From assembly GCF_902859765.1 (NCBI RefSeq), contig NZ_CADIJV010000005.1, positions 1 to 64,000 on the forward strand: a stretch of DNA of 64,000 bases. The letters run 5' to 3'. The first letter of the stretch is position 1. The number at the start of each line of letters is the position of its first letter. Source of the stretch: Achromobacter pulmonis (GTDB lineage: Bacteria > Pseudomonadota > Gammaproteobacteria > Burkholderiales > Burkholderiaceae_B). The position numbers and the translations under genes were made by a program. The notes below the pieces were generated by a model. It did no database searches and was not told the DNA's origin. It saw nothing but the letters and a program-made list of their open reading frames with translations. Positions 41,199 through 59,058 of the stretch are shown here, piece by piece.

Positions 41199-41260
41199 GA
41201 AGTCCCTTATTACACTTTTCTTCGTGCTCAATCGCCTGCCGCCGCCCGGCCTTTACTCCC

Positions 41261-42292: not shown

Positions 42293-42961
42293 ATGTCGGA
42301 GTTCGGATTTACCCTGCAGGAATGTCCTGCCGGCCCCAGCCGCGAGACGCTCGCGGCCTATCAGGCGCTGGCCGTGGCCAACATCAGCGATGCCATGAGC
42401 CGCGCGACCGGCACCTCGGCCTTGCTCCCGATGCATCGCTCGCGCCGTATCCTTGGCCGTGCCTACACCGTGCGCACGCGGCCGGGCGACAACCTGATGG
42501 TCCACAAGGCGATCGATTCCGCCGAGCCGGGGGACGTGATCGTGGTGGATGCCGGCGGCGATATGAACAACGCCATCATCGGCGAGATCATGGTGGGTTG
42601 GGCGGCCCGGCGCGGGCTGGCCGGCTTCGTGATCGACGGCGCCATCCGCGATAGCGAAACGATCGGCGCAGGCGATTTTCCCGTCTATGCGCGCGGGGTC
42701 GCGCATCGCGGTCCCTACAAGGATGGCCCCGGCGCCATCAATGTGCCGGTCGCGGTCGACGGGATGGTGGTGCTGCCCGGCGACCTGCTGGTGGGCGATG
42801 CCGACGGTCTGTTGGCCATCCGTCCCGACGAGGCGCCCGCCATCGCGGCGCGCGTGCGCGCGATCGCCGCGGCGGAAGCCCGAGTGCTGGAGGATATCGC
42901 GCGCGGAACGCTGGACCGCGCCTGGGTCGATGGCACGCTCAAGGCGCGAGGCGTGCTGTGA
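42293..42961 (+). CDS. RraA-family aldolase (HMG/CHA aldolase-like)
   Basis: 222 residues. Members cleave 4-hydroxy-4-methyl-2-oxoglutarate or 4-carboxy-4-hydroxy-2-oxoadipate to pyruvate and a second oxoacid, and also decarboxylate oxaloacetate. Conserved parts are NISDAMSRATGT near the start, GDVIVVDAGGDMNNAIIGEI with substrate-binding residues, and GFVIDGAIRDSETIGAG with the catalytic Arg-Asp pair. It overlaps the next gene by four bases. Some family members inhibit RNase E, but the neighbourhood favours an aldolase role. Confidence 0.85.
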   Translation: MSEFGFTLQECPAGPSRETLAAYQALAVANISDAMSRATGTSALLPMHRSRRILGRAYTVRTRPGDNLMVHKAIDSAEPGDVIVVDAGGDMNNAIIGEIMVGWAARRGLAGFVIDGAIRDSETIGAGDFPVYARGVAHRGPYKDGPGAINVPVAVDGMVVLPGDLLVGDADGLLAIRPDEAPAIAARVRAIAAAEARVLEDIARGTLDRAWVDGTLKARGVL

Positions 42962-44001: not shown

Positions 44002-44079
44002 CAACACGGCATGGGTCCCTGCCCGCATCGAAAAGCGCGAATCAGGCAGCCCCCCGCCAAAATACAAAGGAGACAACTC

Positions 44080-45069
44080 ATGCAAAAACAAGACAAACGC
44101 TGGAAGCGGCGCGCCGTGGCGACCCTGCTGGCGACCGCTGCGCTGCTCACCAGCGGCGCGCAGGCGGCCGGCTACCCCGAGCACCCGATCAACCTGATCG
44201 TGTCGTACGGGCCAGGCGGAGGCACCGACCTGGTGGCCCGCATGATGGCGCCCTATCTGCAGAAATACCTGGGCAGCGACGCCCGCATCGTCGTACTGAA
44301 CCGCCCTGGCGCGGGCGGGGCGATAGGTTTCTCGGAATTGGCGCGTGCCCAGCCGGACGGCTATACCATCGGCTTTATCAACACGCCGAACTTGTTGACG
44401 ATTCCCATCGAACGCAAGACGAGCTTCACGTGGCGCAGCTTCGATCTGCTGGGCAACCTGATCGACGATCCCGGCGCATTTTCGGTGCTGAACGACAATC
44501 CGATCAAGACCCTGGCCGATCTTTCCGCCTATGCCAAGAAGAACCCGGGCAAGGTGACGGTGGGCACCACCGGCACGGGCTCGGACGACCATCTTGCCAT
44601 GCTGCGCTTCGAGCGGGTTTCCGGCGGCAAGCTCAGCCATATTCCCTACAAGGGCGCGGGAGAAGTGCGGGGCGCGCTGGCAAGCGGCGAGATCACGATC
44701 GGCGCCATCAACGTGGGCGAAGCGCTGCAGTACCAGAAGGGCGGAACCCCGTTGCGCATGCTGGGCCAGATGGGCAAGACCCGGTCGGCGGCGCTGCCGG
44801 ACGTGCCGACGTTCAAGGAACAGGGCTTCGATTTCGAGTTGGCCTCGCTGCGAGGATTGGCAGCGCCCAAGGGCTTGCCCGAAGATATCCGCGCCAAGCT
44901 TGTCTCCGCGGTGAAGCGCACGGTGGACGATCCGGAATTCCAGGCCAAGGCCAAGGACATGTTTGTCCCGCTGCGCTATCTGCCGCCTCCCGAGTACGCC
45001 AAGGAACTGGCGGCCGGCGAAGCAGAATTCCGGGCGCTCTGGAAAGAAGCGCCGTGGCTGGATAAGTAA
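44080..45069 (+). CDS. Bug-family periplasmic receptor (TctC-like)
   Basis: 329 residues from the ATG at 44080 with a strong AAAGGAG site. The Sec signal peptide (MQKQDKRWKRRAVATLLATA, then ALLTSGAQAAG) is followed by the hallmark start YPEHPINLIVSYGPGGGTD. The GAGGAIGFSELARAQPDGYT and VGTTGTGSDDH segments contact carboxylate ligands in Bug structures. No TctA/TctB membrane genes are present nearby, which is usual for the amplified Bug family. It follows the hydroxyacid dehydrogenase gene and probably captures the pathway's carboxylate. Confidence 0.93.
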   Translation: MQKQDKRWKRRAVATLLATAALLTSGAQAAGYPEHPINLIVSYGPGGGTDLVARMMAPYLQKYLGSDARIVVLNRPGAGGAIGFSELARAQPDGYTIGFINTPNLLTIPIERKTSFTWRSFDLLGNLIDDPGAFSVLNDNPIKTLADLSAYAKKNPGKVTVGTTGTGSDDHLAMLRFERVSGGKLSHIPYKGAGEVRGALASGEITIGAINVGEALQYQKGGTPLRMLGQMGKTRSAALPDVPTFKEQGFDFELASLRGLAAPKGLPEDIRAKLVSAVKRTVDDPEFQAKAKDMFVPLRYLPPPEYAKELAAGEAEFRALWKEAPWLDK

Positions 45070-45139
45070 CGGGTCGGATGGCGGGAAGCGGGCCTCGGCC
45101 TGAGGTCCGCGTCAGGCGGTGCATGTCCCGGTTTCGCGG

Positions 45140-46144
45140 CTAATTCACCTTGATTTTGAACTCCCGCACGAGAACCGTATTGCGCTCCAGTTCTGTCTTT
45201 ATGCGTGCGCCGAACGCAGCACCCGGCAGGCCCACCGGATCGGTTCCCATCTCGGCGAGCTTTGCGCGGACCTCGGGTTTGGCCAGTACGGCCAACGCGG
45301 CGTCCTTCAGCTTCTTGATCGCTTCAGTCGGCGTGCCTGCTGGCGCCAGCAGACCGTACCAGGTCGTGGCAATGACATCTTTGCCAGCAGGCCCGAGCAC
45401 TTCGCCGACCGTGGGGATGTCGGGCGCCAGCGGCGTGCGGGTTAGCTGGGTCACGGCCAGCGCCCGTAGCTTGCCCGCATGAATCTGCGGCAGCAGCGGC
45501 GGCAGCCCCGCGATCACCAGTTGCACCTGGCCTCCCAAGGCATCGGACACGGCCGGCCCCGCGCCCTTGTACGGAACGTGGATCAGATCGGCGCCGGTGC
45601 GGGCCTTCATGATTTCCAAGGCCAGCTGATGTGTGGATCCCGTTCCAGGCGTGCCCACGGTCAGGGGCGAACCTGATTTTGCCCGTGCAACCACGTCTTT
45701 CAGCGTGCCCTGGACCGACGGATGGGCGGCAATGATGTTCGGCGATTCCGCTATCAGCACAAGCGGGACCAAGTCGCGCGACACGTCGTATCGCGTATCC
45801 CGATACAGCGCGGGGTTGACCGTCAGTTCCGGGTTGCCCGCAACCAGCACGGTGTACCCATCCGCGCGGGCGCGCACAACGGATTCCGTGCCGATCATGC
45901 CCGCAGCGCCGCCTTTGTTTTCGACGACCACGCTTTGCTTGAGCTCGGTGGACATGGCTTGCGCAAGCAGGCGCGCAATGACGTCGATGCCACCTCCTGC
46001 CGGGTACGAAACCACCATGCGTATCGGCCTGTCGGGATACGTATCCGCCTGCGCCACGCCTGCCGTCATGGCCGTGGCAGCGGCTAATACGGCAAGTTTC
46101 GCACCGAGGCCTTTGCGCGCCAGACGCGCGAACGAATCGAACAT
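45140..46144 (-). CDS. Bug-family periplasmic receptor
   Basis: 334 residues from the ATG at 46144 with an AGGAG site. Signal sequence MFDSFARLARKGLGAKLAVL, ending GVAQA|DTYPDRPIRM. The mature start MVVSYPAGGGIDVIAR and ARADGYTVLVAGN fit Bug proteins, as do VGTPGTGSTHQLALEIM and VPYKGAGPAVSDALGGQVQ. It is 57 bases downstream of the probable real stop of the sulfatase gene, in the same operon. Confidence 0.93.
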   Translation of the reverse strand: MFDSFARLARKGLGAKLAVLAAATAMTAGVAQADTYPDRPIRMVVSYPAGGGIDVIARLLAQAMSTELKQSVVVENKGGAAGMIGTESVVRARADGYTVLVAGNPELTVNPALYRDTRYDVSRDLVPLVLIAESPNIIAAHPSVQGTLKDVVARAKSGSPLTVGTPGTGSTHQLALEIMKARTGADLIHVPYKGAGPAVSDALGGQVQLVIAGLPPLLPQIHAGKLRALAVTQLTRTPLAPDIPTVGEVLGPAGKDVIATTWYGLLAPAGTPTEAIKKLKDAALAVLAKPEVRAKLAEMGTDPVGLPGAAFGARIKTELERNTVLVREFKIKVN

Positions 46145-46201
46145 GGATGTCTCCTGCGATGCCGGCATTGAGCGCCGATCTGGTAGGTGTAATGAAGAGG
46201 A

Positions 46202-47657
46202 TTAATAGAAACGGGGGGCGCTCGTTGGGCGCGGGGGTGTTCCCGAAGTCCCCCCGCTGCAGGATAGCGTCACGGCCGCCATGTTTGGCAATCAACTCGG
46301 ATTGCCGAGTCTTGGCGCGTTGGTCGGCGGCTTCGGGAATGCAGATAGCGCGCAGCGCCCGATCACACGCAGCGCGTTCGCTGGCATAGCCGGGATCGTC
46401 CGCGACATTACGCAGTTCTTCGGGATCGGCCTGCAGGTCGTACAGCTCGGGCGGCAAGTCGATATGGTGTATGTATTTCATCCTGCCAAGGCGCACGGCG
46501 AAGGCGCCCGCCACCGAACCGGTCGCGTGATACTCGATCAGCACGCCGCGATCTGGCTGTTGCCCCTCGCATAGTTGCGACAGCGAAACGCCAGGGCGGT
46601 CGTCCATCAGGCCGGCCGTGTCCTCCCCCACGGCTTCGAATAGAAAGGGGAATATGTCGACGTGGCTGACCGGCGTCTGGACCGTCTTGCCTGACGGCAG
46701 CCCCGCGCCGCTGACAATCAGCGGGCAACCCGCTGACTCTTCGTACAGGGTCGATTTCCCCCATAACCCGCGCGCGCCCAGGTTGTCGCCATGGTCGCTG
46801 GTGTACACGATACGCGTATTGTCCTGAAGCCCTGCTTTGTGCAATGCCGACATCACGTTGCCGATCTGTTCGTCCAGGAAGGTGCACAAGCCGTAATACG
46901 AAGCCAACGCGCGTTGCACGTGCGCGTCGTCTTCGAAGTAGGCGCCGTAGTCCAGGCAGGACGCATAGTTGCGCACGTACGGATGCAGGTCGTCGCCAGG
47001 GCGCTGATGCAGTTTGGGCATGGGCAAGGTGCGATCGGCATAGCGGTAGTAATGCTCCGGGGGCGCGGTCAACGGAAAATGCGGCGCGACAAACGACACG
47101 AAGAGCACCCATGGCTTGTTCGTGTATTTGTGTGCCTCTTCTCGCAGCCACACCTGCGCGCTGGCCGCGATGGCGCGGTCGTAAGTTGTGTAGGTGGATT
47201 CGCCAGGCCCGGCGGTGGCGGCCAGCTTTTTGGCATGCCCACGCACGGCCAAGGGATCGCGCAGCAAGCCGATCAGGTCTCCCTTGCCCTCGACGACATG
47301 CATGGGCAGCAGCTCCTCCGAAAAGCCATTGTCCTCGTCTGAACTGCGAAAGTGCAGCTTGCCGATCGAGGCCACATGATGTCCGCGGTCGCGAAGCAGG
47401 TGATGCCAGCTTTTTACCGAGCCGTCATACGGGTCGGCGTTGTCCCAGAATCCAATCTGGTGCACGTACTTGCCCAGGGCAAAAGCCGCGCGTGCCGGCA
47501 CGCAGATGGGACTGGTGGTGTAGGCGTCGGTGAACAGCGTGCCTCGCTGCGCCAATGCATCCAGATTGGGAGTATGCACAATGGGGTTGCCGTAGCAGCC
47601 CAGGACTTTACGGCTATGTTCGTCGGACATGATGACGAGCAGGTTTTGCGGTTTCAT
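46202..47657 (-). CDS. Type I sulfatase (choline-sulfatase/BetC-like), frameshifted near the C-terminus
   Basis: About 484 residues if the frameshift is corrected. The formylglycine site is SPICVPARAAFALG with Cys52 of CxPxR. Metal ligands start in IMSDEH near residue 10, and SDHGDNLGARGLWGKSTLYEES is the second conserved block. There is no signal peptide, so the protein is cytosolic. As sequenced, the frame misses its stop after NERPPF and runs 877 bases through the Bug gene in another frame. Removing one base of the six-G tract at 46213-46218 gives NERPRFY and a stop at 46202, matching the paralogue's length. A sequencing error or a recent mutation are both possible. Confidence 0.85.
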
Positions 47658-47728
47658 GCGGGTCTCCGGTGTTTTTCGATGTTGTCGCGGGAAAGTCTAG
47701 GCCCGGCTTGGCAGCGCGATGCGGAACG

Positions 47729-47747
47729 AGCTTATATGGGATAAGCT
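47729..47747. promoter_or_regulatory. Candidate LysR operator upstream of the sulfatase module
   Basis: AGCTTAT-ATGGG-ATAAGCT, a perfect 7-base-arm dyad, lies in the divergent region between the sulfatase and the LysR gene. A further ATAAG...CTTAT half-site overlap runs to 47755. It has the T-N11-A shape of LysR sites. Confidence 0.6.
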
Positions 47748-47754
47748 AATTCTT

Positions 47755-48729
47755 ATGAATGCGCCCATATACGATTCGCTGGATGACGCACGCCGCGCGC
47801 TCGGCCGCTTGACGATGACCGAATTCCGGACGTTGCTGGCCATCAAGACGGCGGGGACCTTGTCGCGCGCCGCAGTGGCCTTGGGCGTGAGCCAGCCTGC
47901 GCTCAGCCAACATGTGCGTGACATGGAAAGCAAACTGGGCGTGCCTATGTTTGTGCGTGGCGCGGGCGGTATGACGCCCACCGCCTATGGCGACGCAGTC
48001 TGGCAACTGGCGGCAAGCCTGCGGGCGGACATCGGGGTCGCTGCCGAGGCGCTATGGCACGCGTCACGGAACGACAAGCCGCCGCTGCGCATTGGCAGCA
48101 TGTCGGTCACCTCGGGCGGCATATTGGCCGTGGCGCTGGGGCGCTACGCCTCGGAAGCGGCCAACCCCGCGTGCGTGCTGGTCGAAGGGTCGCGCGAAGT
48201 CCTGCTTGAGCATTTGCATCACCGGCGCATCGATATGTTCGTGGGCAGGTTGGCCGACGATGAGCCCCCTTCTGGCATGCTGCGGGAAACCTTGTTCCAG
48301 GATAGTTGCGTTGTCATCTCCTCGTTGCGGCACCCGCTGGCACGTAAAAGCCGCCTGAATATGGAAGCGCTTTACGATCATTCCTGGATCGTGCCTGCCG
48401 AAGACACCAGCTTCTACAAGCAGATTGCGGAATCCATGCGGCGGGCGGGTGTGGCGCAGCCCGAGGCGCGCATCGCATCCTATTCCATGCTGGCATTGGC
48501 GGCCGTCGTTTCAACCTCGGAATTATTGGGCTTCCTGCCGATGTCGTTGTACGCATCGGGTACCTTGTCCAACAGTGTGCGCAGGCTGGAGGTGGATCTG
48601 GCCTGGACGCCGTCGCCGCTAGGTATCGTGATGTGGCGCGATGCCAGCCTGAATCCACGCGCGCAGCGTCTGTTGGAAATCCTGCGCGCCGTTGCTGGCA
48701 GCGCTCGCGCTTCGGCGCCGCATGCATGA
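47755..48729 (+). CDS. LysR-family transcriptional regulator
   Basis: 324 residues from the ATG at 47755. An in-frame earlier start at 47719 would place the operator dyad inside the gene. Helix-turn-helix region MTEFRTLLAIKTAGTLSRAA, then VSQPALSQHVRDMESKLGVP. It is divergent from sulfatase-Bug and directly upstream of a second LysR gene, from which it is separated by 18 bases. Confidence 0.9.
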   Translation: MNAPIYDSLDDARRALGRLTMTEFRTLLAIKTAGTLSRAAVALGVSQPALSQHVRDMESKLGVPMFVRGAGGMTPTAYGDAVWQLAASLRADIGVAAEALWHASRNDKPPLRIGSMSVTSGGILAVALGRYASEAANPACVLVEGSREVLLEHLHHRRIDMFVGRLADDEPPSGMLRETLFQDSCVVISSLRHPLARKSRLNMEALYDHSWIVPAEDTSFYKQIAESMRRAGVAQPEARIASYSMLALAAVVSTSELLGFLPMSLYASGTLSNSVRRLEVDLAWTPSPLGIVMWRDASLNPRAQRLLEILRAVAGSARASAPHA

Positions 48730-48747
48730 CTCCTTGATCCGTTAACC

Positions 48748-49701
48748 ATGACGCCACGCCAGCTTCGTTATTTTCTTGAAATCGCCCGCAGCGGCAGTCT
48801 GTCGCTGGCGTCCAGCGCGCTGCGTATCGCGCAGCCCGCGCTCAGCCAGCACGTGGCGGTGCTGGAAAGCGAGTTGGGCGTGGCCCTGTTCGAGCGGCAC
48901 GCCAAGGGCGTCACGCTGACGGCCGAAGGCAAGCGCCTGCAGCAGCGCGCCGCGTCCATCCTGGACCAGTTGGAATCGCTGAGAGCCGATGTGCTGGGCT
49001 CGACGGGAAAACCGCGAGGACCGGTGCGGGTATGCCTGGCGCGTTCGCTGGCGCAGGTGGTGGCCGCGCCCTTGATACGGTATGTGGAACGGGAATATCC
49101 CGACATCCGGCTCTTGTTGTCGTCGGCGCTGTCCAGCCAGGTGCGCGCGGCGCTTGAGACGCGGCAACTGGATGTGGCGCTGATGCCCAACGCGTTCGAA
49201 CTGCCGGGCTTGTATTGCAAGCCGGTGTACGAGGAAGGATTTTCGCTGTTCGGTCTGGAATCGATGTTCGACCGGCGCGGCAAGACCATCGCGTTTTCGG
49301 AGATCGGGTCGCGGCCACTGGTGGCGCCGGACCGCGATCACGATCTGCGCCGGCTGGTTGAGCGCACGGCGGTGGATCTGGACTGCCCGTTGAACGTGAA
49401 ATATGAAATCAACGATCCCGAGTTGAATTTTGCCTTGGTGCGTGAGGGCGTGGCGTTCGCGATCCTGCCCGACAGCGCAGGCCGGGAACTGGGGCTGGGC
49501 ACCCACACCGTGGGCGCACGGCGCCTGCTGCGGCCGCCGATCAAACGGATGCAGGCCATCGTGCGCGTGGCGGATAACGCGCCCGGCAGCGCGGTGCTGG
49601 CCGTGGAGCTGGCGCTACAGGCTGTGTTGCGCAGCTTGGTGGAACACAAGGTGCTGCGCGGTACGCTGGTATATGAAAAAACTTATACAAAACGCAGATA
49701 A
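48748..49701 (+). CDS. LysR-family transcriptional regulator (Nac/CynR-like)
   Basis: 317 residues. Start MTPRQLRYFLEIARSGSLSL, then IAQPALSQHVAVLESELGVA, the typical N-terminal helix-turn-helix. The effector domain is of the LysR substrate-binding type. It lies upstream of the second Bug-sulfatase module, in the same direction, and probably controls it. Having two LysR regulators back to back, each facing one module, suggests separate inducers. Confidence 0.9.
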   Translation: MTPRQLRYFLEIARSGSLSLASSALRIAQPALSQHVAVLESELGVALFERHAKGVTLTAEGKRLQQRAASILDQLESLRADVLGSTGKPRGPVRVCLARSLAQVVAAPLIRYVEREYPDIRLLLSSALSSQVRAALETRQLDVALMPNAFELPGLYCKPVYEEGFSLFGLESMFDRRGKTIAFSEIGSRPLVAPDRDHDLRRLVERTAVDLDCPLNVKYEINDPELNFALVREGVAFAILPDSAGRELGLGTHTVGARRLLRPPIKRMQAIVRVADNAPGSAVLAVELALQAVLRSLVEHKVLRGTLVYEKTYTKRR

Positions 49702-49781
49702 ATAATATTTGTCTTCAGGGCTGCCGCGACCGTACGCTACCCCAAAAATGGCGCACAGAAAGCGCCGATACGGAGACAAGC

Positions 49782-50753
49782 ATGCAAGTCGGACGCAGAC
49801 AATTTCTAGGCGCCCTGGGCGCCGCCGCGTGCTGTAGCGCGGTGCCGTTCAGGCAGGCGCGAGCCAATCCCCCTTTGCGTATGTTGGTCGGTTTCGCCCC
49901 GGGAGGCGCGGCTGACCTGGTGGCGCGTGCGCTGGCCGAAGGCATGCGAGCATCGGGCTACACCACCATCGTCGAAAACAAGGCGGGAGCGGGTGGCCGC
50001 ATTGCGGTCGATGCGCTGTTGGCGTCGGGCGCAGATGGCAATTCCGTGCTGTTCACGCCCTCCACGAACCTGACGCTATATCCCCATCTGTACAAGGACT
50101 TGCGCTACACCACGGCGGATTTCACCCCCCTGGGAACGGCCAGTGAATTCGATTTCGCGTTCGCGGTGGGCGCCAACAGTCCTGCCAGAACACTGGCTGA
50201 ATTTCTGCAACTGGCGAAAAAGGACATGCGCATGGCCGTGTACGGCACTCCCGGCGCCGGCACCGTCATGCATTTCCTGGGCATCATGCTGGCGAACGCC
50301 AGCAAAGTGCCCTTGACGCCCATTCCCTACAAGGGCGGATCGCCGGCGCTGGCCGACACCGTGGGCGGGACATTGCCTGCGTTGATCACAACGCTGCCCA
50401 ACCTGATTCCCATGCACAAATCCGGCAAGATCCGGATCCTGGCCACGACGGGATCGGCGCCGTCGGCTGCGCTGCCCGACGTGCCCACGTTCGCGTCCGC
50501 TGGATATCCGTCGCTGACGATGGCCGAGTACTTCACGCTGCTGGGCAACAAGGGCTTGCCCGCCGAGCGGATGCAGGCATTGACCCGTGCCGTGGCCGAC
50601 ACCGTGCGCTCCCCGGCTTTCGAACGGGTCATGCGGCAGCAATTCTTCCAACCCAAAGTCACCGCGCCCGTGGCCTTGAAGCAGCAGCTGGTACGCGAAG
50701 ACGCGTTCTGGGATCAGGTCGTCAGGGACAGCGGCTATCGCCCCGAGGCCTGA
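49782..50753 (+). CDS. Bug-family receptor with twin-arginine-type signal
   Basis: 323 residues. The N-terminus MQVGRRQFLGALGAAACCSA contains RRQFLGA, a twin-arginine motif, which is unusual in this largely Sec-exported family. Mature PPLRMLVGFAPGGAADLVAR, GAGGRIAVDALLAS and IPYKGGSPALADTVGGTLPA identify a Bug protein. It is the first gene of the Bug-sulfatase-FAD dehydrogenase operon on +. Confidence 0.92.
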   Translation: MQVGRRQFLGALGAAACCSAVPFRQARANPPLRMLVGFAPGGAADLVARALAEGMRASGYTTIVENKAGAGGRIAVDALLASGADGNSVLFTPSTNLTLYPHLYKDLRYTTADFTPLGTASEFDFAFAVGANSPARTLAEFLQLAKKDMRMAVYGTPGAGTVMHFLGIMLANASKVPLTPIPYKGGSPALADTVGGTLPALITTLPNLIPMHKSGKIRILATTGSAPSAALPDVPTFASAGYPSLTMAEYFTLLGNKGLPAERMQALTRAVADTVRSPAFERVMRQQFFQPKVTAPVALKQQLVREDAFWDQVVRDSGYRPEA

Positions 50754-50792
50754 CGCCGCGTGAGCGCGGCTATCCTATTTGCAGGAAGCACA

Positions 50793-52241
50793 ATGAAAGG
50801 CAAGAACATCGTCGTCATCATGTCCGATGAGCACAATCCCCAATTCATGGGCTGTTCCGGGCATCCGTTCATCAAGACCCCCCATTTGGATGCACTGGCT
50901 GCGCGCGGTGCACGGTTTCCCAACGCATACACCCCCAGTCCGATCTGCGTGCCGGCCCGGGCGGCGTTTGCCACAGGCCATCGGGTGCACCAGACCCGGC
51001 ATTGGGACAACGCCATGCCGTACGTGGGCGATCCCCAAGGCTGGGGCCATGTGCTGCAACAGCGCGGCATCAACGTGGAGAGCATAGGCAAACTGCACTA
51101 CCGCAATGAAGAGGACCCGGTCGGCTTCGACGCGGAACATATCCCCATGCATGTGGTGGGCGGGCACGGAATGGTGTGGGCGTCGATCCGCGATCCGTAT
51201 CTGCCCGTGGCCGGCCGCAAGCGCATGCTAGGCGACCGCATCGGCATGGGGGAATCTGCCTATACCTCCTATGACCGATCGGTCACGGGGCGCGCGCTGG
51301 ACTGGCTGCGCGCGGCGGCGGACCGGGGGCATCCCTTTGTGCTGTACGTGGGCCTGGTGGCGCCCCATTTTCCGCTGATTGCGCCGCAGGAATTCTTCAG
51401 TTTGTACGAGGCGCGCCAGATTCCCGAGGCCAAACTGCATCCGAAAAACGGCTACGAACGACACCCCTGGGTGCAGGCCTATGCGGAATTCGAGCGCAGC
51501 GAGGAAACGTTCCAGGATGAAGAGGAGCGGGTCAACGCCTTCCTGGCGTATTACGGACTTTGCAGCTTCCTTGACAGCAACGTGGGCCGTATCGTGGACG
51601 CGCTTGCCACGCTGGGCCTGGCCGACTCGACCCACGTGGTCTACACATCGGACCACGGCGACAACGTCGGGGCCCGCGGTTTGTGGGGAAAGTCCACGCT
51701 GTATCAGGAAAGCGTGGGCATCCCCATGATATTGGCGGGCCCGGACGTGGCGCCTACTGTCTGCGAGACGCCGGTGGATTTGCTGGATCTTTACCCGACG
51801 CTGTTGCAGGCCGTGGGCGTGGATCCGGCGCCGTATCAGGGCGCCCGGCCAGGAAAGTCCTTGTTCGACATCGCGCGGCAGCCGGCCGACGCCAGCCGCG
51901 CGATTCTCAGCGAATACCATGCCGCCGGCAGCAACACGGCGGGCTTCATGCTGCGCAAGGGGCCTTGGAAGTATCACCACTATGTGCGCTTCCAGCCGGA
52001 GCTTTTCAACCTGGATTCAGATCCCGGCGAACTGCACGATCTGGCGGGCGACCCGGCTTATGCGGCCGTACTGTCCGAGATGAAGACGGCGCTGTACGCA
52101 ATCTGCAATCCGGAAGACGTGGACAGGCAGGCCAAGGCCGACCAGGCCGCGATGATCGAACGCTTGGGCGGCCCCGAAGCCGCCTCGACGATGGGCGCCA
52201 GCGGGGCAACGCCGGCGCCCAGGGTGGAGCAAGCAGCATGA
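50793..52241 (+). CDS. Type I sulfatase (choline-sulfatase/BetC-like)
   Basis: 482 residues from the ATG at 50793 with a GCAGGAAG site. It is a paralogue of the sulfatase at 46202: the same IMSDEH start, formylglycine Cys52 in SPICVPARAAFATG, and SDHGDNVGARGLWGKSTLYQES. No signal peptide is present. It hydrolyses a sulfate ester in the cytosol after formylglycine maturation of Cys52; no maturation enzyme is encoded here. Its stop overlaps the next ATG (ATGA), which couples it to the FAD dehydrogenase and suggests that the desulfated alcohol is oxidised next. Confidence 0.92.
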   Translation: MKGKNIVVIMSDEHNPQFMGCSGHPFIKTPHLDALAARGARFPNAYTPSPICVPARAAFATGHRVHQTRHWDNAMPYVGDPQGWGHVLQQRGINVESIGKLHYRNEEDPVGFDAEHIPMHVVGGHGMVWASIRDPYLPVAGRKRMLGDRIGMGESAYTSYDRSVTGRALDWLRAAADRGHPFVLYVGLVAPHFPLIAPQEFFSLYEARQIPEAKLHPKNGYERHPWVQAYAEFERSEETFQDEEERVNAFLAYYGLCSFLDSNVGRIVDALATLGLADSTHVVYTSDHGDNVGARGLWGKSTLYQESVGIPMILAGPDVAPTVCETPVDLLDLYPTLLQAVGVDPAPYQGARPGKSLFDIARQPADASRAILSEYHAAGSNTAGFMLRKGPWKYHHYVRFQPELFNLDSDPGELHDLAGDPAYAAVLSEMKTALYAICNPEDVDRQAKADQAAMIERLGGPEAASTMGASGATPAPRVEQAA

Positions 52242-53554
52242 ACGTGGATGCCCGGTATCTCAAAGACTGGAGCGGCCTGACGCGGGGTGTGCCTAGCGAG
52301 GTGCACCGGCCCATGACCACGGACGACGTGGCGGCGCTTGTTCGCGATGCCGATCTGCGGGGGCGCAAGATCACGATCCAGGGCGGGATGACGGGGCTGG
52401 CTGGCGGCGCGGTGCCGGGCGATGGCGATGTGGTCATCAACATGGAGCGCATGAATCGCATTGAATCCATCGACGAGGTGGAAGGGATCATGCAGGTGCA
52501 GGCGGGCGCCACGTTGCAACAGGTGCAGGAAGCCGCCGCCGCAGCAGGTTGGTTCTTTCCGGTGGACCTGGGCGCGCGCGGCACGTGCCAGGTCGGCGGC
52601 AACGCCGCTACCAACGCGGGCGGCACGCAGGTTGTGCGCTACGGCACGATGCGCGATTCGGTGTTGGGGCTGGAAGCGGTCTTGCCTGATGGGTCGGTCG
52701 TGACGTCGTTGACGCGCCTGGTCAAAAACAGTTCGGGTCTGGACTTGCGTTACCTGTTCATCGGCTCCGAAGGGACGCTGGGCGTGATCACCCGGCTGAT
52801 CCTGCGCTTGCAGCCCGATCCAGGCGCGCCGGCGACGGCGTTGGTGCAGGTGCCGGACACGGCGTCCATGGCCTTGTTGTTGCGCCATTTGAAAAAGACC
52901 TTGGGTCCGCAACTGACCGCCTATGAATTCATGTCGGCGCCGTTTCTACAACGCGCCGCAGCGCTGACGGACGTGTCCCTGCCATTGCCTGGCGGCGCGC
53001 CATGGAGCGTGCTGATTCAGGCCAGCGGGTTGGCTGGCGTGGACCCGCAACTGGCGCTGGAAGGCGCGTTGGAACAGGCGTGGGAGGCCGGTACGATCAG
53101 CGATTGCGCGGTGGCGTCCAGCCTGTCCGATGCGCAGAAATTCTGGCGGCTGCGGGAATGCATTCCCGAACTGTTGACGGCGCTCAAGCCCACAGTGAAT
53201 TTCGACTGTGGCCTGCCCTGGACCGAAATGTCGGGCTTCGTGAGCGAGGTCGAGGCCGCGCTGAAACTGAAATACCCGGATGCGGCGCACTTGTTCCTGG
53301 GCCATTTGGGCGACAACAACGTTCACATCCTGACGGGACCGCATGACCCAAGCGAATGGCTGGACGTGGAGGAGGTGGTGTACAGCGCGCTGCGAGGCCG
53401 GCAAGGGACTGTCAGCGCTGAACACGGCATAGGCTTTCTGAAAAAGCCGTTTCTGGGCTATACCCGCAGCAACGGCGAGATCGCGTTGTTGAAGCGCCTG
53501 AAGCGTGCGCTAGACCCCAACAATACGTTGAACCCGGGCCGCATTGTCGATTGA
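52238..53554 (+). CDS. FAD-linked 2-hydroxyacid dehydrogenase (GlcD/D-LDH-like)
   Basis: 438 residues from the ATG at 52238. The PCMH-type FAD domain contains IQGGMTGLAGGAVPGDGDVV and QVGGNAATNAGGTQVVRYGT. The C-terminal domain has LGHLGDNNVHIL and SAEHGIGFLKK (metal and substrate binding) and ends LDPNNTLNPGRIVD. Members oxidise glycolate, D-lactate or D-2-hydroxyglutarate. Coupling to a sulfatase implies a substrate released as a D-2-hydroxyacid. A convergent hairpin with ACCGCCGG arms (53662-53692) follows it. Confidence 0.92.
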   Translation: MNVDARYLKDWSGLTRGVPSEVHRPMTTDDVAALVRDADLRGRKITIQGGMTGLAGGAVPGDGDVVINMERMNRIESIDEVEGIMQVQAGATLQQVQEAAAAAGWFFPVDLGARGTCQVGGNAATNAGGTQVVRYGTMRDSVLGLEAVLPDGSVVTSLTRLVKNSSGLDLRYLFIGSEGTLGVITRLILRLQPDPGAPATALVQVPDTASMALLLRHLKKTLGPQLTAYEFMSAPFLQRAAALTDVSLPLPGGAPWSVLIQASGLAGVDPQLALEGALEQAWEAGTISDCAVASSLSDAQKFWRLRECIPELLTALKPTVNFDCGLPWTEMSGFVSEVEAALKLKYPDAAHLFLGHLGDNNVHILTGPHDPSEWLDVEEVVYSALRGRQGTVSAEHGIGFLKKPFLGYTRSNGEIALLKRLKRALDPNNTLNPGRIVD

Positions 53555-53775
53555 CGGTCGGTTTCCGACGGAAAGTGTTCCGGGTGCAAGTGGCTCTGCC
53601 CCATCCGGAGGTTCGTAGCGCGGGTGACTGGTCACGGCCGCGCCGAACGGGCGCCAGCCCCCCGGCGGTGGGCCTCGAACGCCAACCGCCGGCATGCGCA
53701 CCTCCCAAGTAAGCCGTGACACGCCACGGCATTGGCAGGATGCGCTTTGCCTCGCCGCAGGTAGGGGGCCCAGCC

Positions 53776-54750
53776 CTAGTTTTTATCCCCGATGCCAGCG
53801 TCATCGACGACTTTCTTCCAGCGGGCCTGTTCCGCCGCGATGTAGGTCTGATAGGCCTCGGGCCCCATATAGTCTTTCTGCAGGCCCAGATTCGCCAGCT
53901 TATCCGCGACGCCTTTCTCGTTGAGAATCTGCTCGATATCCTTGGCGAGCTGATGCACGATGGGCGCTGGCGTCTTGGCCGGCGCGGCGAAACCGAACCA
54001 GGACCTGACATCGAAGTCCTTGATGTTCAGCGCCTCCTCGACGGTCGGCACGGACGGCAGCGCCGAGCTGCGCACGTTGGTCGCCGCGGCCAGCGCTTTC
54101 AGTTTGCCCGCTTTGACGTATTGCCCGGCCAATGCGGAAGTGAGCGCCATCATGTCGACGCGGCCGGCCATCAGGTCTGACAGCGCATCCGATTGGCCCT
54201 TGTACGGCACGTGGACCAACTCGGTGTGGGTGCGCTGGGACAGCAATTCGCCGGTGAGGTGATTGGAGGTGCCGACGCCAGGCGACGAGTAGGTCAGGGG
54301 CGGGCCGGACTTGGCGCGATTGAGCAGGTCCCGCAGCGACGAGGCCGGATTGCTGGGGTTGACCACGATGACGTTGGGAATCATCCCGACGTTGGCGACC
54401 GCGACAAAGTCCTTGGTCGGAGACCACGGGATGGTCTTGCTGATGCTGGGCAGTACCGTGAAGTAGGTGCTGACCGCCAGCAAGGTATAGCCGTCCGCGG
54501 GCGCGCTGGCGACGTGTCCGGTGCCAATGGCGCCGCCGGCGCCCGCGCGGTTCTCCACGACCACCGGCTGTCCGTATTTGGCTGACAGGCGCTCGCCGAT
54601 GATGCGGGCGATGGAATCCACGACCCCGCCCGGCGAGAACGCGACGACCAGCGTGATGGGTTTGGTGGGATACGCGGCGTCCGCCGCCGAGGCGACGCCC
54701 GTCGTCGCCAATGCGCTCGCCGCGACTGCGGCCAGTATGATTTTTTTCAT
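53776..54750 (-). CDS. Bug-family periplasmic receptor
   Basis: 324 residues from the ATG at 54750, with a GGAGGAG site. Sec signal MKKIILAAVAASALATTGVA. Mature YPTKPITLVVAFSPGGVVDS, GAGGAIGTGHVASAPADGYT and SSPGVGTSNHLTGELLSQ are Bug marks. It is the last of a three-gene operon (FAD dehydrogenase, small barrel protein, Bug receptor) on the minus strand. Confidence 0.92.
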   Translation of the reverse strand: MKKIILAAVAASALATTGVASAADAAYPTKPITLVVAFSPGGVVDSIARIIGERLSAKYGQPVVVENRAGAGGAIGTGHVASAPADGYTLLAVSTYFTVLPSISKTIPWSPTKDFVAVANVGMIPNVIVVNPSNPASSLRDLLNRAKSGPPLTYSSPGVGTSNHLTGELLSQRTHTELVHVPYKGQSDALSDLMAGRVDMMALTSALAGQYVKAGKLKALAAATNVRSSALPSVPTVEEALNIKDFDVRSWFGFAAPAKTPAPIVHQLAKDIEQILNEKGVADKLANLGLQKDYMGPEAYQTYIAAEQARWKKVVDDAGIGDKN

Positions 54751-54809
54751 GGTCTCCTCCGGTGCCGTGGCGATTGTCCGCCCGGCCGTGCTGTGGCTGA
54801 TGCGCCGTT

Positions 54810-55148
54810 CTAGTTGTTCAGTTGTCCGGGCAGCGTTGCGCTGCTTGCGCACACTTCAAAGTATTCGACTTTGGGGTCATAGGATTCCAGGCGCTTTTGC
54901 GTGCTTTCCTTGACGATCGCATCTTCCAGGGGCGCGCCCTTGGCGAACAGCTTTACGGCGTCCATGTCGCGCCAGTAGCTCAGATACAGCAGTTCGAATT
55001 TGTCGCCGACCGGCTTCTTGGACAGGGATGCGCCCAGGTTCCCGTCCAGCGCGGCCATTTCCCGGAACGTGGTTGCCTGCAGATGCGCAATGTACTCGTC
55101 GATGACGGCTTGGGATGTGGCGATCGCGCGCCAGGATCGGATGATCAT
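54810..55148 (-). CDS. Small dimeric alpha/beta-barrel (ABM-type) protein
   Basis: 112 residues. MIIRSWRAIATSQAVIDEYI, then FELLYLSYWRDMDAVKLFA, is the ferredoxin-like pattern of antibiotic-biosynthesis-monooxygenase and stress-responsive barrels. It has no obvious cofactor. It lies 47 bases after the FAD dehydrogenase gene and 59 bases before the Bug gene. A role as a small oxygenase or an isomerase is possible but unproven. Confidence 0.65.
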   Translation of the reverse strand: MIIRSWRAIATSQAVIDEYIAHLQATTFREMAALDGNLGASLSKKPVGDKFELLYLSYWRDMDAVKLFAKGAPLEDAIVKESTQKRLESYDPKVEYFEVCASSATLPGQLNN

Positions 55149-55195
55149 GTTTTGCTCCAATTGAAGGGTGGGTTGAGAGCGGCCCGTCGCTCGCG

Positions 55196-56617
55196 TTAGT
55201 CTGGTTGAACGACTTTGCCGGGGTTCAGCAGGTTCCTGGGATCGAGCGCCTGCTTGATGCGCTGCATCATGCGCAGGCGGGCGCCCGCCTTGTACTTGCG
55301 CAGGTGGCTCGTCTTGCGAGCGCCGATGCCATGCTCGGCGGAAAACGATCCTTCGAGATCGAGCACGATGCGATACAGCTCGTTGCGCAGATCGTCCTCG
55401 ATGTTTGGCGTGACTGCCGCTTCGTGCAGGCGGGACGTATGAACGCTGAAATGCAGATTCCCGTCGCCCAAGTGGCCGAAGCAGACGATTGGCAGCGCGC
55501 CATGGCGTTCTTCGATTTTCCGCGCCGACAGAACCAGGAATCGATTGACCGCCGAAATCGGCACGGAAATATCGACATTGACGACGTGCGGCTTGCTGGC
55601 CTGGGCCAGGACGATGTTCTCCCGGATCAGCCAGAAGCTCTTGGCGCGCTGCATGCTGTCGGAGATCGAGGCATCGATCAGTTCGGCGTCGTCCATCGCG
55701 GCGCCCAGCGTCTGCTCGATGCGTGCCTGCAGCGTCTCGTGCGGCGCCTGACTGTCTAGCTGCATCAGGGCAAACTGTTCGACATCCTTGTTGTCGAGAA
55801 AGGGTATTGGCATGCCGGGAAATGCGTCCGCCGCCAATTCCAGGCTGGCGCGATTCATGATCTCGAAGCTGGTGAGCTCGGTTCCCAGCGAGGCCTGGCA
55901 GCGGCGCAGGAGCGCGACCGCGCTGTCCACGTTCCGCAAGCCCATCCAGGCGCACACCGATGACGCCGGCGCGTGTTCGATCTTGAGCGTTGCCGCCGTG
56001 ATGATGCCCAGGCTACCTTCGCTGCCGATGATCAGGCCCTTGAGATCGAAGCCGGTGTTGTTCTTGCGCAGGCCGCCCAGCTCCGACACGAGTTCTCCGT
56101 CGGCGGTCAGGAACTCCAGACCCAGGCAGAGGTCGCGTGCGTTGCCAAAGCGCAGGACCTGCGCGCCGCCGGCATTGGTGGCGAGGTTGCCGCCGATCGT
56201 GCACGTGCCTTCCGAACCCAGGCTGAGCGGAAAGAGCAGGCCTTGTGCCATCAGCGATTCACGCAGGCCTTGCAAGGTGCAGCCGGCTTCCACCGTGACG
56301 GTCATGTTGGCGCGGTCGACCTTGCGGATCGCGGTCAGCCTGCGCAGGCTCAGGATGACCTGGGAGCTCGATGCGTCAGGGGTCGCGCCGGCCGCCAGCC
56401 CCGTGTTGCCGCCTTGAGGCACGATGGCAACATGCCGGTCGGCGCACTGTTGTACGACCGCGCGGGTTTGCTCGACCGATCCGGGTCGCACGACGGCGAG
56501 CGCCGATCCGTGGACCTGGCCGCGCCAGTCCGTTTCGTAACTTGCCTTGTCGTCGCCGGCCAGCACGTTGGCCGGGCCGACGATCCGGCGCAACGCGCCC
56601 AACAGTTCGTCATGCAT
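55196..56617 (-). CDS. FAD-linked 2-hydroxyacid dehydrogenase (GlcD/D2HGDH-like), second copy
   Basis: 473 residues from the ATG at 56617, with GGGGAG upstream; the frame continues but is not family-like. The FAD region contains IVPQGGNTGLAAGATPDASS and IGGNLATNAGGAQVLRFGNA. The C-terminal half contains CFGHLGDGNLHFSVH and SAEHGIGARKTSHLRKYKAG and ends LDPRNLLNPGKVV. It is closer to D-2-hydroxyglutarate/D-lactate dehydrogenases than the gene at 52238. It is divergent from an aminotransferase that could amidate or transaminate the 2-oxoacid it makes. Confidence 0.92.
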   Translation of the reverse strand: MHDELLGALRRIVGPANVLAGDDKASYETDWRGQVHGSALAVVRPGSVEQTRAVVQQCADRHVAIVPQGGNTGLAAGATPDASSSQVILSLRRLTAIRKVDRANMTVTVEAGCTLQGLRESLMAQGLLFPLSLGSEGTCTIGGNLATNAGGAQVLRFGNARDLCLGLEFLTADGELVSELGGLRKNNTGFDLKGLIIGSEGSLGIITAATLKIEHAPASSVCAWMGLRNVDSAVALLRRCQASLGTELTSFEIMNRASLELAADAFPGMPIPFLDNKDVEQFALMQLDSQAPHETLQARIEQTLGAAMDDAELIDASISDSMQRAKSFWLIRENIVLAQASKPHVVNVDISVPISAVNRFLVLSARKIEERHGALPIVCFGHLGDGNLHFSVHTSRLHEAAVTPNIEDDLRNELYRIVLDLEGSFSAEHGIGARKTSHLRKYKAGARLRMMQRIKQALDPRNLLNPGKVVQPD

Positions 56618-56902
56618 TCGATGGCTCCCCCGATATTCTTTCGGCGCCATAGCGCCATTTTGCTGGCGAGTCTGGCCGAGGATCCTTGTCTTGGAAAGGG
56701 CTGTTTCGCTGTGCGGTTCACCGTGGCGCCACGGCGTCGGTCGGGCGCCGGGGCGTCTGTTTTGCAGTGCGAAACGGCTCCTCATGGTCAGGGAGCCTTG
56801 ATCTACTGTCTGGGTATTGGCCGATGCGCGGCCCTTGCCGCCGTTGGGGAGAAGCCGCTTCGGTCGCATAGAAACAAGAACATACGATGCGTGGATGGGA
56901 CA

Positions 56903-58126
56903 ATGGATCAAAAATTCGCTGATTATTTCGTGAAGCCGCTCGAATCGCCGATTCGAGCGCTGTTTCCCTATCTCAAGGATCCGTCGATCATCGGATTTGC
57001 CGGAGGCAACCCGGCCGTCGACGTGTTTGACGTGGCGGGGCTTCGTGAGGCCATGGCCGAGGCGATGTGCGCGTCGGCCGACGGCTGGGCGCAGTACTCG
57101 GCCACCGACGGCTTGCCGCGTCTAAGGCAGGCCATCATTGGCTACATGGGCAGGCGGGGCGCGCCAGTCGACGAGGCCTCGCTGTTGCTGACGGCGGGCT
57201 CGCAACAGGCGCTGGACCTGTTGGCGCGGGTACTGGTCAATCCGGGCGACAGGATCATCGTCGAGCGGCCGACGTATCCGACGGCCATCCAGACATTCAA
57301 GTCCGCCGGCGCGCGGCTGGTTGGCGTGGATAGCGGACCCGACGGCATCTGTCTGGCGCACCTCAGAAGCATCCTGGAGGAGTCCAGCGCGAGCGGCAGA
57401 CCCAAGGCGCTTTATTGCGTGCCTACGTTCGGCAACCCCACCGGGCGGACGTTTTCCGCGCAGAACCGCCGTGGCCTGCTGGCGCTGGCGAGCGAATTCG
57501 ATCTGCTGATCATCGAGGATGATCCCTACAGCGCGCTCAGCTTCGAACCCCTGGATTTGCCGAGCCTCCATCGCCTTGCGCAGCAAGACGCGTCGACCTC
57601 CGGTCTGGTCGTGTATCTGTCGAGCCTGTCCAAAGTCATGGCTCCCGGGATGCGAATCGGCTGGATGATCGGGGCGGCTGCGCTGGTGCGGCGATGCGCC
57701 ATCGCCAAGCAATCGGTGGATCTATGCTCCAGCACCTGGACGCAGGCGGCGGCCGCGGTCTACCTCGAGGCGGGACGGCTGGAGGCGCATCTGCCGCGCG
57801 CCTGCGAAGTCTATGCGGAACGCGCCCTGGCGTTGCAGTCCTGCTTGTCCTCCCTGCTTGGCGACCGATTCGAATTCGACGCGCCACGGGGAGGCATGTT
57901 CATTTGGGGACGCTTTCCGGCGCGGGTGAATACACAGGCGTTGCTGAAAGCGTGCATCGCTCAAGGAGTGGTGTTCGTGCCGGGGGATGCGTTCTATGCC
58001 GATGACGCGGACGGCAGCACGGCGCGGCTGTGCTTCTCGATGTGCTCGCCGGATCGCATCGAAGCAGGCGTGCGCCGGCTGGCGCAGGCGCTCGACCGAT
58101 ACCAGGCCGGTCAGGTCGCCGATTGA
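56903..58126 (+). CDS. PLP-dependent class I/II aminotransferase (2-aminoadipate-aminotransferase-like)
   Basis: 407 residues from the ATG at 56903. The catalytic Lys is K244 in LSSLSKVMAPGMRIGW. Other parts are GNPAVDVF near the start, YSATDGLPRLRQAI, CVPTFGNPTGRTFSAQNRRG and IIEDDPYSALSF, the MocR/KAT-II layout without a DNA-binding domain. It interconverts 2-oxoacids and amino acids. Divergent from the FAD dehydrogenase, it could consume the 2-oxoacid product. It precedes a convergent IclR gene. Confidence 0.92.
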   Translation: MDQKFADYFVKPLESPIRALFPYLKDPSIIGFAGGNPAVDVFDVAGLREAMAEAMCASADGWAQYSATDGLPRLRQAIIGYMGRRGAPVDEASLLLTAGSQQALDLLARVLVNPGDRIIVERPTYPTAIQTFKSAGARLVGVDSGPDGICLAHLRSILEESSASGRPKALYCVPTFGNPTGRTFSAQNRRGLLALASEFDLLIIEDDPYSALSFEPLDLPSLHRLAQQDASTSGLVVYLSSLSKVMAPGMRIGWMIGAAALVRRCAIAKQSVDLCSSTWTQAAAAVYLEAGRLEAHLPRACEVYAERALALQSCLSSLLGDRFEFDAPRGGMFIWGRFPARVNTQALLKACIAQGVVFVPGDAFYADDADGSTARLCFSMCSPDRIEAGVRRLAQALDRYQAGQVAD

Positions 58127-58151
58127 TTCGGCCGATCGCCCGATGCCGGCA

Positions 58152-59006
58152 TTATCCGCTGCGGCGCGATGGCGCGTCAGGCGCCGCCGAGTACTGCAGC
58201 GCGATTTTCCTGGCGGCGGCGTTCAGTTGTGGCGCCAGTTCGGCAAGGTCGACCTTCAGGTTGGCCTTGTTCGAGATCGTGCAGTTGATGGCCGCGGGCT
58301 CGGCCGAGCTGGGCAGGGGGATATACGTTGCAATGGCGTCGATATCCGCCAGCCATGGGCCGCGCGCGCGGCAATGCCCCGCGGCGCGAAAAAGCTGTTC
58401 ATCCGCTTCGAGGTACTCGAGGCCCGCGGCGTAACTGGCGGGATCGGAAACCTTGATGCGGTTGAGCAGTGGTTCGCGCTGTTTGGCTGGATGCGCCAGG
58501 ACAAGCGCCCGGCCGATGGCGCTGTGCAGCAACGGGCTGACGCTGCCCACGTCGGGCAGGTACGGATTGGCCAGGTCGGAACGAACCGAGTCGATATAGA
58601 TGGCTTGGACCCGTTCCTGGGCCGCGAGGTTGACCGTGCAACCGGTTTCCGTGGCAAGTTGCTGCAAGACCGGTCTGGCGATCTGCCGTAGCGCGAGTCC
58701 GCCCAGTACGGGGTGCGCCAAGGTGAGCACGGCGGTGCCCAGGCGGTATGCCCCCGCCTCGTCCTGGCACAGATAGCCGAAGGCGGCGAGCGTGTAGGTC
58801 AGGCGCGAGACCGTCGCCTTGGGCAAGCCCGTGCGATCGGAAATCGTGCGATTGGTGAGCACGGGATCCGCGGCAGTGAAGGCGCGCAAGACTTCGAGCC
58901 CGCGCGCGAGGTTCATGGAGAACTGGCGGTCTTCGCCCCCCGAACTGGCCTCTTCGATTATCGGCGAAAGTCGCCGCGCGGCTTTTTGCTTGGGATGGGC
59001 GTCCAT
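58152..59006 (-). CDS. IclR-family transcriptional regulator
   Basis: 284 residues. Winged helix MNLARGLEVLRAFTAADPVL, then GLPKATVSRLTYTLAAFGYL, followed by an IclR effector domain with GSVSPLLHSAIGRALVLAHP. The N-terminal 30 residues are a basic, flexible extension. It is convergent with the aminotransferase gene and a likely regulator of the neighbouring carboxylate operon. Confidence 0.9.
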   Translation of the reverse strand: MDAHPKQKAARRLSPIIEEASSGGEDRQFSMNLARGLEVLRAFTAADPVLTNRTISDRTGLPKATVSRLTYTLAAFGYLCQDEAGAYRLGTAVLTLAHPVLGGLALRQIARPVLQQLATETGCTVNLAAQERVQAIYIDSVRSDLANPYLPDVGSVSPLLHSAIGRALVLAHPAKQREPLLNRIKVSDPASYAAGLEYLEADEQLFRAAGHCRARGPWLADIDAIATYIPLPSSAEPAAINCTISNKANLKVDLAELAPQLNAAARKIALQYSAAPDAPSRRSG

Positions 59007-59058
59007 CGCGGGCTTTCGCTCCGGTTAAACAACGGTAGGGGAGGGATTATAGTGACTG

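Follow-up and report, generated by a model that had tools for sequence, protein, structure and literature searches.

A recurring receptor–sulfatase–flavin dehydrogenase operon in Achromobacter pulmonis and its possible role in the use of sulfated 2-hydroxy acids

Introduction

The question raised by the locus described here is what a periplasmic receptor, a sulfatase and a flavin dehydrogenase may accomplish together in Achromobacter pulmonis, in which their genes follow one another on contig NZ_CADIJV010000005.1 of the assembly GCF_902859765.1. The first 64,000 nucleotides of this contig were analysed and are referred to below as the window. As judged from its recurrence in other genomes, the row of genes LysR2–Bug2–Sulf2–FAD1 (positions 48748–53554, forward strand) is a real, recurring and conserved operon, and the chances appear evenly balanced that it serves the catabolism of a sulfate ester of a D-2-hydroxycarboxylic acid. 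Small carboxylate organosulfates are present in aerosols and marine plants—the sulfates of glycolic and lactic acids and zosteric acid being among them—and the breakdown products of animal tyrosine sulfate are further compounds of this kind.

In the proposed route, Bug2 would take the sulfated carboxylate in the periplasm and pass it to a TctAB-type permease presumably encoded elsewhere. In the cytosol, Sulf2, in which the motif and the catalytic residues are present, would strip the sulfate by means of a formylglycine formed from Cys52, and FAD1 would then turn the freed D-2-hydroxyacid into the 2-oxoacid, its electrons probably passing to an electron-transfer flavoprotein (ETF). The original prediction had proposed such a sequence of capture, desulfation and oxidation, possibly followed by transamination, for the whole stretch 45140–58126; it holds for the four genes named above, by virtue of the conservation of the operon and of the residues, but not for the stretch as a whole.

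The operon and its conservation

The first gene of the conserved unit encodes the regulator LysR2 (48748–49701, forward strand; PF00126 and PF03466) and is followed on the same strand by Bug2 (49782–50753), a TctC-type periplasmic receptor matching PF03401 with 149.6 bits (cut-off 27), and by Sulf2 (50793–52241), an intracellular class I-type sulfatase with the motif CVPAR containing Cys52, which matches PF00884 with 146.5 bits (cut-off 25). The start of Sulf2 is placed at the ATG at 50793, an alternative GTG at 50760 being possible. FAD1 (52238–53554, forward strand; PF01565 and PF02913) is predicted to be a flavin D-2-hydroxyacid dehydrogenase, and its start overlaps the stop of Sulf2, as had been claimed, the shared letters being the ATGA at 52238–52241. 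The Bug proteins possess a signal-peptide-like N-terminus and the sulfatases do not, both being judged by eye.

Two short peptide patterns served as the seed of a scan through the genomes of 84,980 species; of the 330 relatives it gave, the best 80 were retained and divided into 43 mainly betaproteobacterial loci (one of them from Azospirillum) and 37 mostly alphaproteobacterial ones. A sweep of the order covered 399 genomes, 33 of them with a match at E 1e-125; 40 regions were taken from the 47 places found, leaving aside the window's own two, three already included (L113, L114, L115) and two others. With a further set of 10, this gives 130 loci (80 + 40 + 10), one place being represented twice (as L037 and L195). 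The neighbour counts rest on tblastn matches, and those for the locus of Achromobacter sp. Bel (L028) used Sulf1, the second sulfatase of the window, instead of Sulf2 as the reference.

Of the 43 mainly betaproteobacterial sulfatase genes, 37 have a TctC receptor gene no farther than 1.5 kb away, 33 are accompanied within 4 kb by a LysR2 homologue (identity 39% or more), and 24, or 25 if L028 is counted, have a FAD1 homologue (45% or more) within 2.6 kb. The order Bug–Sulf–FAD1 is common in Bordetella and Achromobacter, the order LysR–Sulf–FAD1–Bug in Cupriavidus, Variovorax, Azohydromonas and Xenophilus; the expected synteny of receptor, sulfatase and dehydrogenase is thus conserved in other genera. 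In the 37 mostly alphaproteobacterial loci, the genes found within 6 kb include those for a metallo-beta-lactamase-fold protein (27), a MarR regulator (29) and a second sulfatase (28).

Active-site residues of the dehydrogenase and the sulfatases

The solved structures nearest to FAD1 by sequence are 3pm9 and the human D-2-hydroxyglutarate dehydrogenase 6lpn, the numbering of which is used here. The residues Arg386, His434, His441, Glu475 and His476, which belong to the metal, the C1-carboxylate and the 2-hydroxyl, are all kept in FAD1 and in each of the 27 homologues chosen (identity 45% or higher along more than 350 residues), a pattern that fits the predicted 2-hydroxyacid oxidase; the same set occurs in D-lactate and glycolate enzymes (PMC7801405). 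All four residues for the second carboxylate—Thr390, Lys401, Tyr432 and Asn443—are replaced in FAD1. Lys401 is kept in none of the 27 homologues, which have Ala, Thr or Asn instead, and Asn443 falls into a gap in FAD1 and all 27. Since a mutation of Lys401 abolishes the activity towards D-2-hydroxyglutarate (PMC7801405), a D-2-hydroxyglutarate dehydrogenase, and with it D-2-hydroxyglutarate as the product, was rejected. With the first set of residues kept and the second replaced, the expected substrate of FAD1 is a D-2-hydroxyacid whose side chain is neutral; the desulfated product would most likely be a monocarboxylate in which the side chain is neutral or aromatic. An ETF as the electron acceptor is supported by the ETF genes near FAD1 in L041, L045 and L065, the last of which has sulfatase, FAD1, symporter, porin, ETF beta and ETF alpha in this order on one strand.

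Concerning the sulfatases, 95 members including the window's two were aligned and numbered according to the choline sulfatase from Sinorhizobium meliloti. Ten catalytic positions are invariant in all 95, namely Asp14, Cys54 (the formylglycine, fGly54), Arg58, Asn75, Lys102, His104, His201, Asp296, His297 and Lys309; together with the CxPxR motif and PF00884 scores above the cut-off of 25, they mark the enzymes as probable class I sulfatases. The solved structure nearest to Sulf2 by sequence is the choline sulfatase 6fny, and choline sulfatases are the best PDB matches of both sulfatases.

An assignment as choline sulfatase was nevertheless rejected, because both proteins, scoring 298.2 and 250.0 bits, miss the cut-off of TIGR03417 (433.45) and because Glu386 is kept in none of the 95 members; a pairwise alignment shifts this position by one residue and does not yield a Glu either. 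The loss of Glu386 cut the hydrolysis of choline sulfate about a thousandfold (PMC5870055); the role of residue 386 as the binder of the ammonium group has been doubted, though its role in activity is accepted (PMC9063841). Trp129 and His145 have clamp roles in choline sulfatase (PMC9063841). Trp129 is likewise kept in 0 of 95, its place being taken by a small aliphatic residue in the alignment, which is uncertain in the loop of Trp129 and His145, the pairwise match putting a Trp of Sulf2 on Trp129. The position of His145 is Arg in 81 of the 95, and His is absent from the residues listed, which cover 94 of the 95. The invariants specific to the family include His14, Asp33, His224, Arg369 and His376 of Sulf2. 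A basic rather than cation-binding pocket, as read from these positions, would fit an anionic substrate.

The carbon skeleton and the wider family

The genes surrounding the relatives offer some indication as to which acid is set free. A gene for 4-hydroxyphenylpyruvate dioxygenase (HPPD) lies within 3.7 kb of the sulfatase in four of the 130 loci (L034, L039, L104 and L112), the expectation, from a rate taken from ten genomes, being 0.22 (P 8e-5; with the discovery locus L034 left aside, P 1.4e-3). In Variovorax paradoxus ISL-3 (L034), some 90 bases separate FAD1 from the start of HPPD, which scores above its NCBIfam cut-off; beyond it, 1.3 kb without a called gene precede the genes for an aminotransferase and for a phenylalanine 4-monooxygenase that also exceeds its cut-off. 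Acidovorax sp. CF316 (L039) possesses HPPD and phenylalanine 4-monooxygenase, both over the cut-off and divergent from Bug–Sulf. In L112, from a genome of the same family (G052), HPPD is present in two pieces 3 kb from the sulfatase, and in L104, from an alphaproteobacterial metagenome-assembled genome, it lies 0.9 kb away. These HPPD neighbours point to hydroxyphenyllactate as the freed acid; together with the phenylalanine hydroxylase genes they hint at an aryl-lactate skeleton, and 4-hydroxyphenyllactate, which would lead via 4-hydroxyphenylpyruvate to homogentisate, is tentatively placed first among the candidates, with the likelihood clearly below even.

The more distant members of the family have different partners. 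In L168, the genes for Bug, the sulfatase, 3-oxo-tetronate kinase and 2-oxo-tetronate isomerase share one strand, the last two scoring over the cut-off, which suggests a pathway that starts from a sulfated tetronate. An aconitase X (L162) and a mandelate racemase/enolase-type enzyme (L164) are found beside distant sulfatase relatives, an RraA-like gene stands just upstream of the sulfatase in seven loci (L156, L157, L159, L163, L166, L170 and L172), and L173 contains a gene for a 2-hydroxyacid dehydrogenase-like protein of the nicotinamide adenine dinucleotide (NAD) type and a ComA-like protein (151.5 bits, under the cut-off of 280). Our reading is that the theme common to these distant members may be the sulfate ester of a hydroxycarboxylic acid.

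It may be added that a gene of the ComA-like (phosphosulfolactate synthase) family lies near the sulfatase in L043, L047, L055, L069, L173 and L179, and more loosely in L062 and L079.

Receptor linkage and transport

Sulfatase and receptor are linked in most of the family, a TctC/Bug gene lying within 1.5 kb of the sulfatase in 109 of the 130 loci (67/80, 34/40 and 8/10 in the three sets). Such genes are numerous in A. pulmonis, the genome of which has 91 of them in 5.67 Mb, so that a random gene has a chance of about 0.07 of having one within 1.5 kb. All four of its seven PF00884 genes that encode CxPxR have an adjacent TctC gene, and the three without CxPxR have none nearby; if TctC genes are assumed to be randomly scattered, four of seven would occur by chance with a probability of 8e-4.

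Only one of the 43 mainly betaproteobacterial loci is without both TctC and a symporter-like family of the major facilitator superfamily (MFS), a gene of which is present in eight. In the mostly alphaproteobacterial loci, both TctA and TctC are found within 6 kb (31/37 each), the gene between them being called TctB-like by position only, with no Pfam family.

Two side observations concern these linkages. The two CxPxR sulfatases encoded outside the window in A. pulmonis are located on contigs C13 and C56 (L001 and L005), each with an adjacent Bug gene. At loci of marine Rhodobacteraceae, L072 and L080 among them, the sulfatase gene and the genes TctA, TctB-like and TctC point away from each other, and the former is followed by a metallo-beta-lactamase-fold gene.

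Weighing the proposed catabolic role

Several observations weigh against the proposed catabolic role or the skeleton suggested for it. First, many of the sulfatase genes have no FAD1 close by: it is missing from 18 of the 43 mainly betaproteobacterial neighbourhoods (two of which lack downstream sequence), from the 6 kb around the sulfatase in all 37 mostly alphaproteobacterial loci and from the 2.5 kb around it in all 40 of the order sweep. The sulfatase family therefore has uses without FAD1, and linkage to the latter is, by the present loci, a mark of one part of the family. Second, the Lys309-contacting Gln15 of choline sulfatase is replaced by Glu in all 95 members. Third, the region contains no TctA match, six being found elsewhere in the genome. 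Fourth, the HPPD link is confined to 4/130 loci and was sought after one sighting; transposases lie near L034, the HPPD frame of L112 is split in two, and the ten genomes behind the expected count include those four. A commoner enzyme from L112, of the 3-hydroxy-3-methylglutaryl-CoA lyase type, also has matches at most 5 kb from the sulfatase in L032 and L049, so single neighbours are not to be over-read, and HPPD of A. pulmonis itself is encoded on another contig.

The last of these points concerns maturation, neither of the canonical maturases—the formylglycine-generating enzyme (FGE) and the anaerobic sulfatase-maturating enzyme (anSME)—being recognised in the genome of A. pulmonis, where TIGR03942 gave no match. 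The only PF03781 match there (L122) is without the cysteine pair, which we take to be the FGE motif, and stands beside a methyltransferase-like gene; the two are presumably EgtB and EgtD. A PF03781 match is missing from four of 38 other genomes with this sulfatase family, and the cysteine pattern is present in 10 of 30 loci (the best PF03781 match per genome in 30 genomes). The cells may thus mature the sulfatase by an unrecognised enzyme; an unrecognised sulfatase maturase is known in E. coli.

The alternative that survives best is that Sulf2 is a general sulfatase for aryl- or alkyl-carboxylates, such as the sulfates of phenolic acids, and FAD1 serves another hydroxyacid arriving through the same receptor, the two sharing regulation rather than a pathway. 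It gains from the dispensability of FAD1 in the 18/43 and 37/37 loci and from the fact that class I sulfatases cleave aryl sulfates, choline sulfatase, for example, accepting 4-nitrophenyl sulfate (PMC5870055); the translational overlap of Sulf2 and FAD1 and the repeated adjacency of both genes argue the other way, and we consider this explanation rather unlikely. Sulfatases are often induced for the supply of sulfur, and Sulf2 might accordingly free sulfate for growth with the carbon part being incidental; the carbon-catabolic neighbours, i.e. FAD1 in 25/43 loci and HPPD, the tetronate enzymes and ETF in single or few loci, make mere scavenging improbable. Slightly less probable still is a protein acting mainly as a phosphodiesterase or a phosphonate monoester hydrolase with sulfate esters as a side activity: the superfamily is promiscuous (PMC5870055) and there are weaker matches to PehA and to phosphonate monoester hydrolases, but PehA gives 153–156 bits against a cut-off of 900 and the best structural matches are the choline sulfatases mentioned above.

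Two sulfatase–receptor pairs of different origin

The proposed catabolic operon is preceded in the window by a second module, consisting of the receptor gene Bug1 (45140–46168, reverse strand; PF03401, 199.2 bits) and the adjoining sulfatase gene Sulf1 (46224–47657 for the part common to its relatives, reverse strand; PF00884, 160.6 bits), with LysR1 (47719–48729, forward strand; Pfam) between the two modules and a 96% homologue of LysR1 in the same position in L028. That the window encodes two paralogous sulfatases with CVPAR at Cys52 is correct, their identity being 48%, and each does have its own Bug gene. The idea of one twin system did not stand, since Sulf1 and Sulf2 are deep paralogues from different parts of the family tree, Bug1 and Bug2 share 33% identity only and, among the loci read, the two sulfatases are side by side only in the window and in Achromobacter sp. 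Bel.

The tree comprises 131 members and one choline sulfatase and was made by a quick method without bootstrap, its root serving for drawing only. Sulf2 belongs to a starred set of 44 rows, 27 of them labelled as linked to FAD1 (the window's own row being unlabelled); Sulf1 belongs to a different starred set of 18 rows with no such link. A recent duplication of both modules was rejected on the grounds of these sets and of the divergence of the two receptors. On this comparison, Sulf1 and Bug1 form a pair of their own that belongs to another clade, and what the sequences present is two pairs of different origin that now adjoin.

The frame of Sulf1 stays open for 777 codons (45324–47657, reverse strand) and extends into the Bug1 gene. 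The homologue in the nearest relative ends a few codons past the common C-terminus, the difference being one base in a run of C, so that the run-on frame is due either to a sequencing or assembly error or to a real change; all catalytic residues are located upstream of the run-on site.

Neighbouring genes

Downstream of FAD1 are found Bug3 (53776–54852, reverse strand), with a PF03401 score over the cut-off, a gene for a small protein of 112 amino acids known from its translation (54810–55148, reverse strand), in which no Pfam or NCBIfam family was matched when fragments covering it were searched, FAD2 (55196–56617, reverse strand; Pfam), predicted to be a second flavin 2-hydroxyacid dehydrogenase, a class I/II aminotransferase (56903–58126, forward strand; PF00155, 132.2 bits) and an IclR regulator (58152–59006, reverse strand; Pfam). 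The inventory of the original prediction is accurate in this respect, the TctC, sulfatase, LysR, FAD-oxidase, aminotransferase and IclR genes being recognised by Pfam at the places given.

Membership of FAD2, Bug3, the aminotransferase and IclR in the system was not borne out. FAD2, whose nearest solved structure by sequence is 3pm9 and which is 35% identical to FAD1, and the aminotransferase reach at best 49% (at E 1e-100) and 43% (at E 1e-90), respectively, among 60 other genomes that do not include the nearest relative, G041. In the locus of the latter (L028), the 10 kb beyond Sulf2 contain no match to either of them, and downstream there is a gene of the Bug3 type (35%). What the FAD2 query matches among the first 90 loci is of the FAD1 type (32–37%), apart from one match at 28% in L063. 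Among the 40 later loci, L182 has a FAD2 match of 43% and a Bug3-type gene, both on the strand opposite to a Sulf1-type sulfatase and 1–3 kb away from it, which weakly favours the wider system. An aminotransferase match within 6 kb of the sulfatase was found in none of these loci, the closest approach being one at 6.1 kb (L193); the transamination step is therefore not supported. FAD2 and the aminotransferase were accordingly rejected as parts of the pathway, owing to the weak matches in the 60 genomes and their absence from the L028 stretch, with L182 counting weakly for FAD2. That the whole of 45140–58126 forms one system ending in transamination is very improbable, for, although its genes are all close together, FAD2 keeps the 2-hydroxyacid residues and L182 has the arrangement just described, the latter is seen in 1/130 loci only with an identity within the range of the FAD2 homologues carried by most relatives anyway, L028, which has these two modules as well, does not have the block beyond them, and Sulf1 and Sulf2 come from different clades.

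On the other side of the two modules, an adjacent operon (41261–45069, forward strand) has the order LysR–RraA-like–NAD 2-hydroxyacid dehydrogenase–Bug. Its RraA- and dehydrogenase-type genes were not seen in L028; RraA- or dehydrogenase-like genes also occur near sulfatase relatives in L156, L157, L159, L163, L166, L170, L172, L173, L116 and L117. The window contains no tRNA, and the absence of any Rfam match above the gathering score in 40000–60000 means that there is no riboswitch clue.

Significance

A search of openly licensed papers found neither such an operon nor a bacterial pathway for sulfated 2-hydroxyacids, which is no proof that neither has been published; to the extent of this search, the operon is an undescribed variant of known parts. 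A broader picture, considered doubtful at present, would be that cytosolic sulfatases linked to receptors form a broad, undescribed family through which sulfated hydroxy- and aryl-carboxylates become accessible to bacterial catabolism, the next enzyme in each clade betraying the skeleton; that the clade of the window takes an aryl-lactate like 4-sulfooxyphenyllactate, derived from tyrosine sulfate, via 4-hydroxyphenylpyruvate to homogentisate; and that at least some of these bacteria mature the enzyme by an unrecognised formylglycine-forming activity. The relatives in other bacteria suggest a little-known way of using sulfated organic acids, possibly tyrosine-derived. The conserved receptor–sulfatase–oxidase operon narrows the enzymes and substrates worth testing down to a few, and the neighbours within the family provide a route to predicting the substrates of sulfatases, which is rarely possible from sequence alone.

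Comparison with known systems

The choline-O-sulfatase from S. meliloti (6fny, 6g5z and 7pth) has the ten catalytic residues in common with Sulf1 and Sulf2, but the window's enzymes are without Glu386 and the Trp129/His145 clamp and have Glu in place of Gln15. The acesulfame sulfatase from Shinella, compared by its description only, is likewise a formylglycine-dependent enzyme, distant from choline sulfatase and encoded in a small catabolic gene group (PMC11500405); its partner there is an amidase, whereas those of Sulf2 are a receptor and a flavin dehydrogenase. FAD1 shares the residues for the metal, the C1-carboxylate and the 2-hydroxyl with the human D-2-hydroxyglutarate dehydrogenase (6lpn) and the putative oxidoreductase 3pm9, and differs from the former in lacking Thr390, Lys401, Tyr432 and Asn443. 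GlcD, a member of the same two-domain FAD family, is like FAD1 devoid of the second-carboxylate residues (PMC7801405), but FAD1, with 243.5 bits, stays below the cut-off of 567.9 of the GlcD equivalog TIGR00387, and no homologue of GlcE or GlcF was noticed in the region. With the receptors of the tripartite tricarboxylate transporters (TctC/Bug), finally, Bug0–Bug3 share the family, all with PF03401 scores well above the cut-off, the difference from the complete tripartite systems being that the region in the window has no match to TctA.

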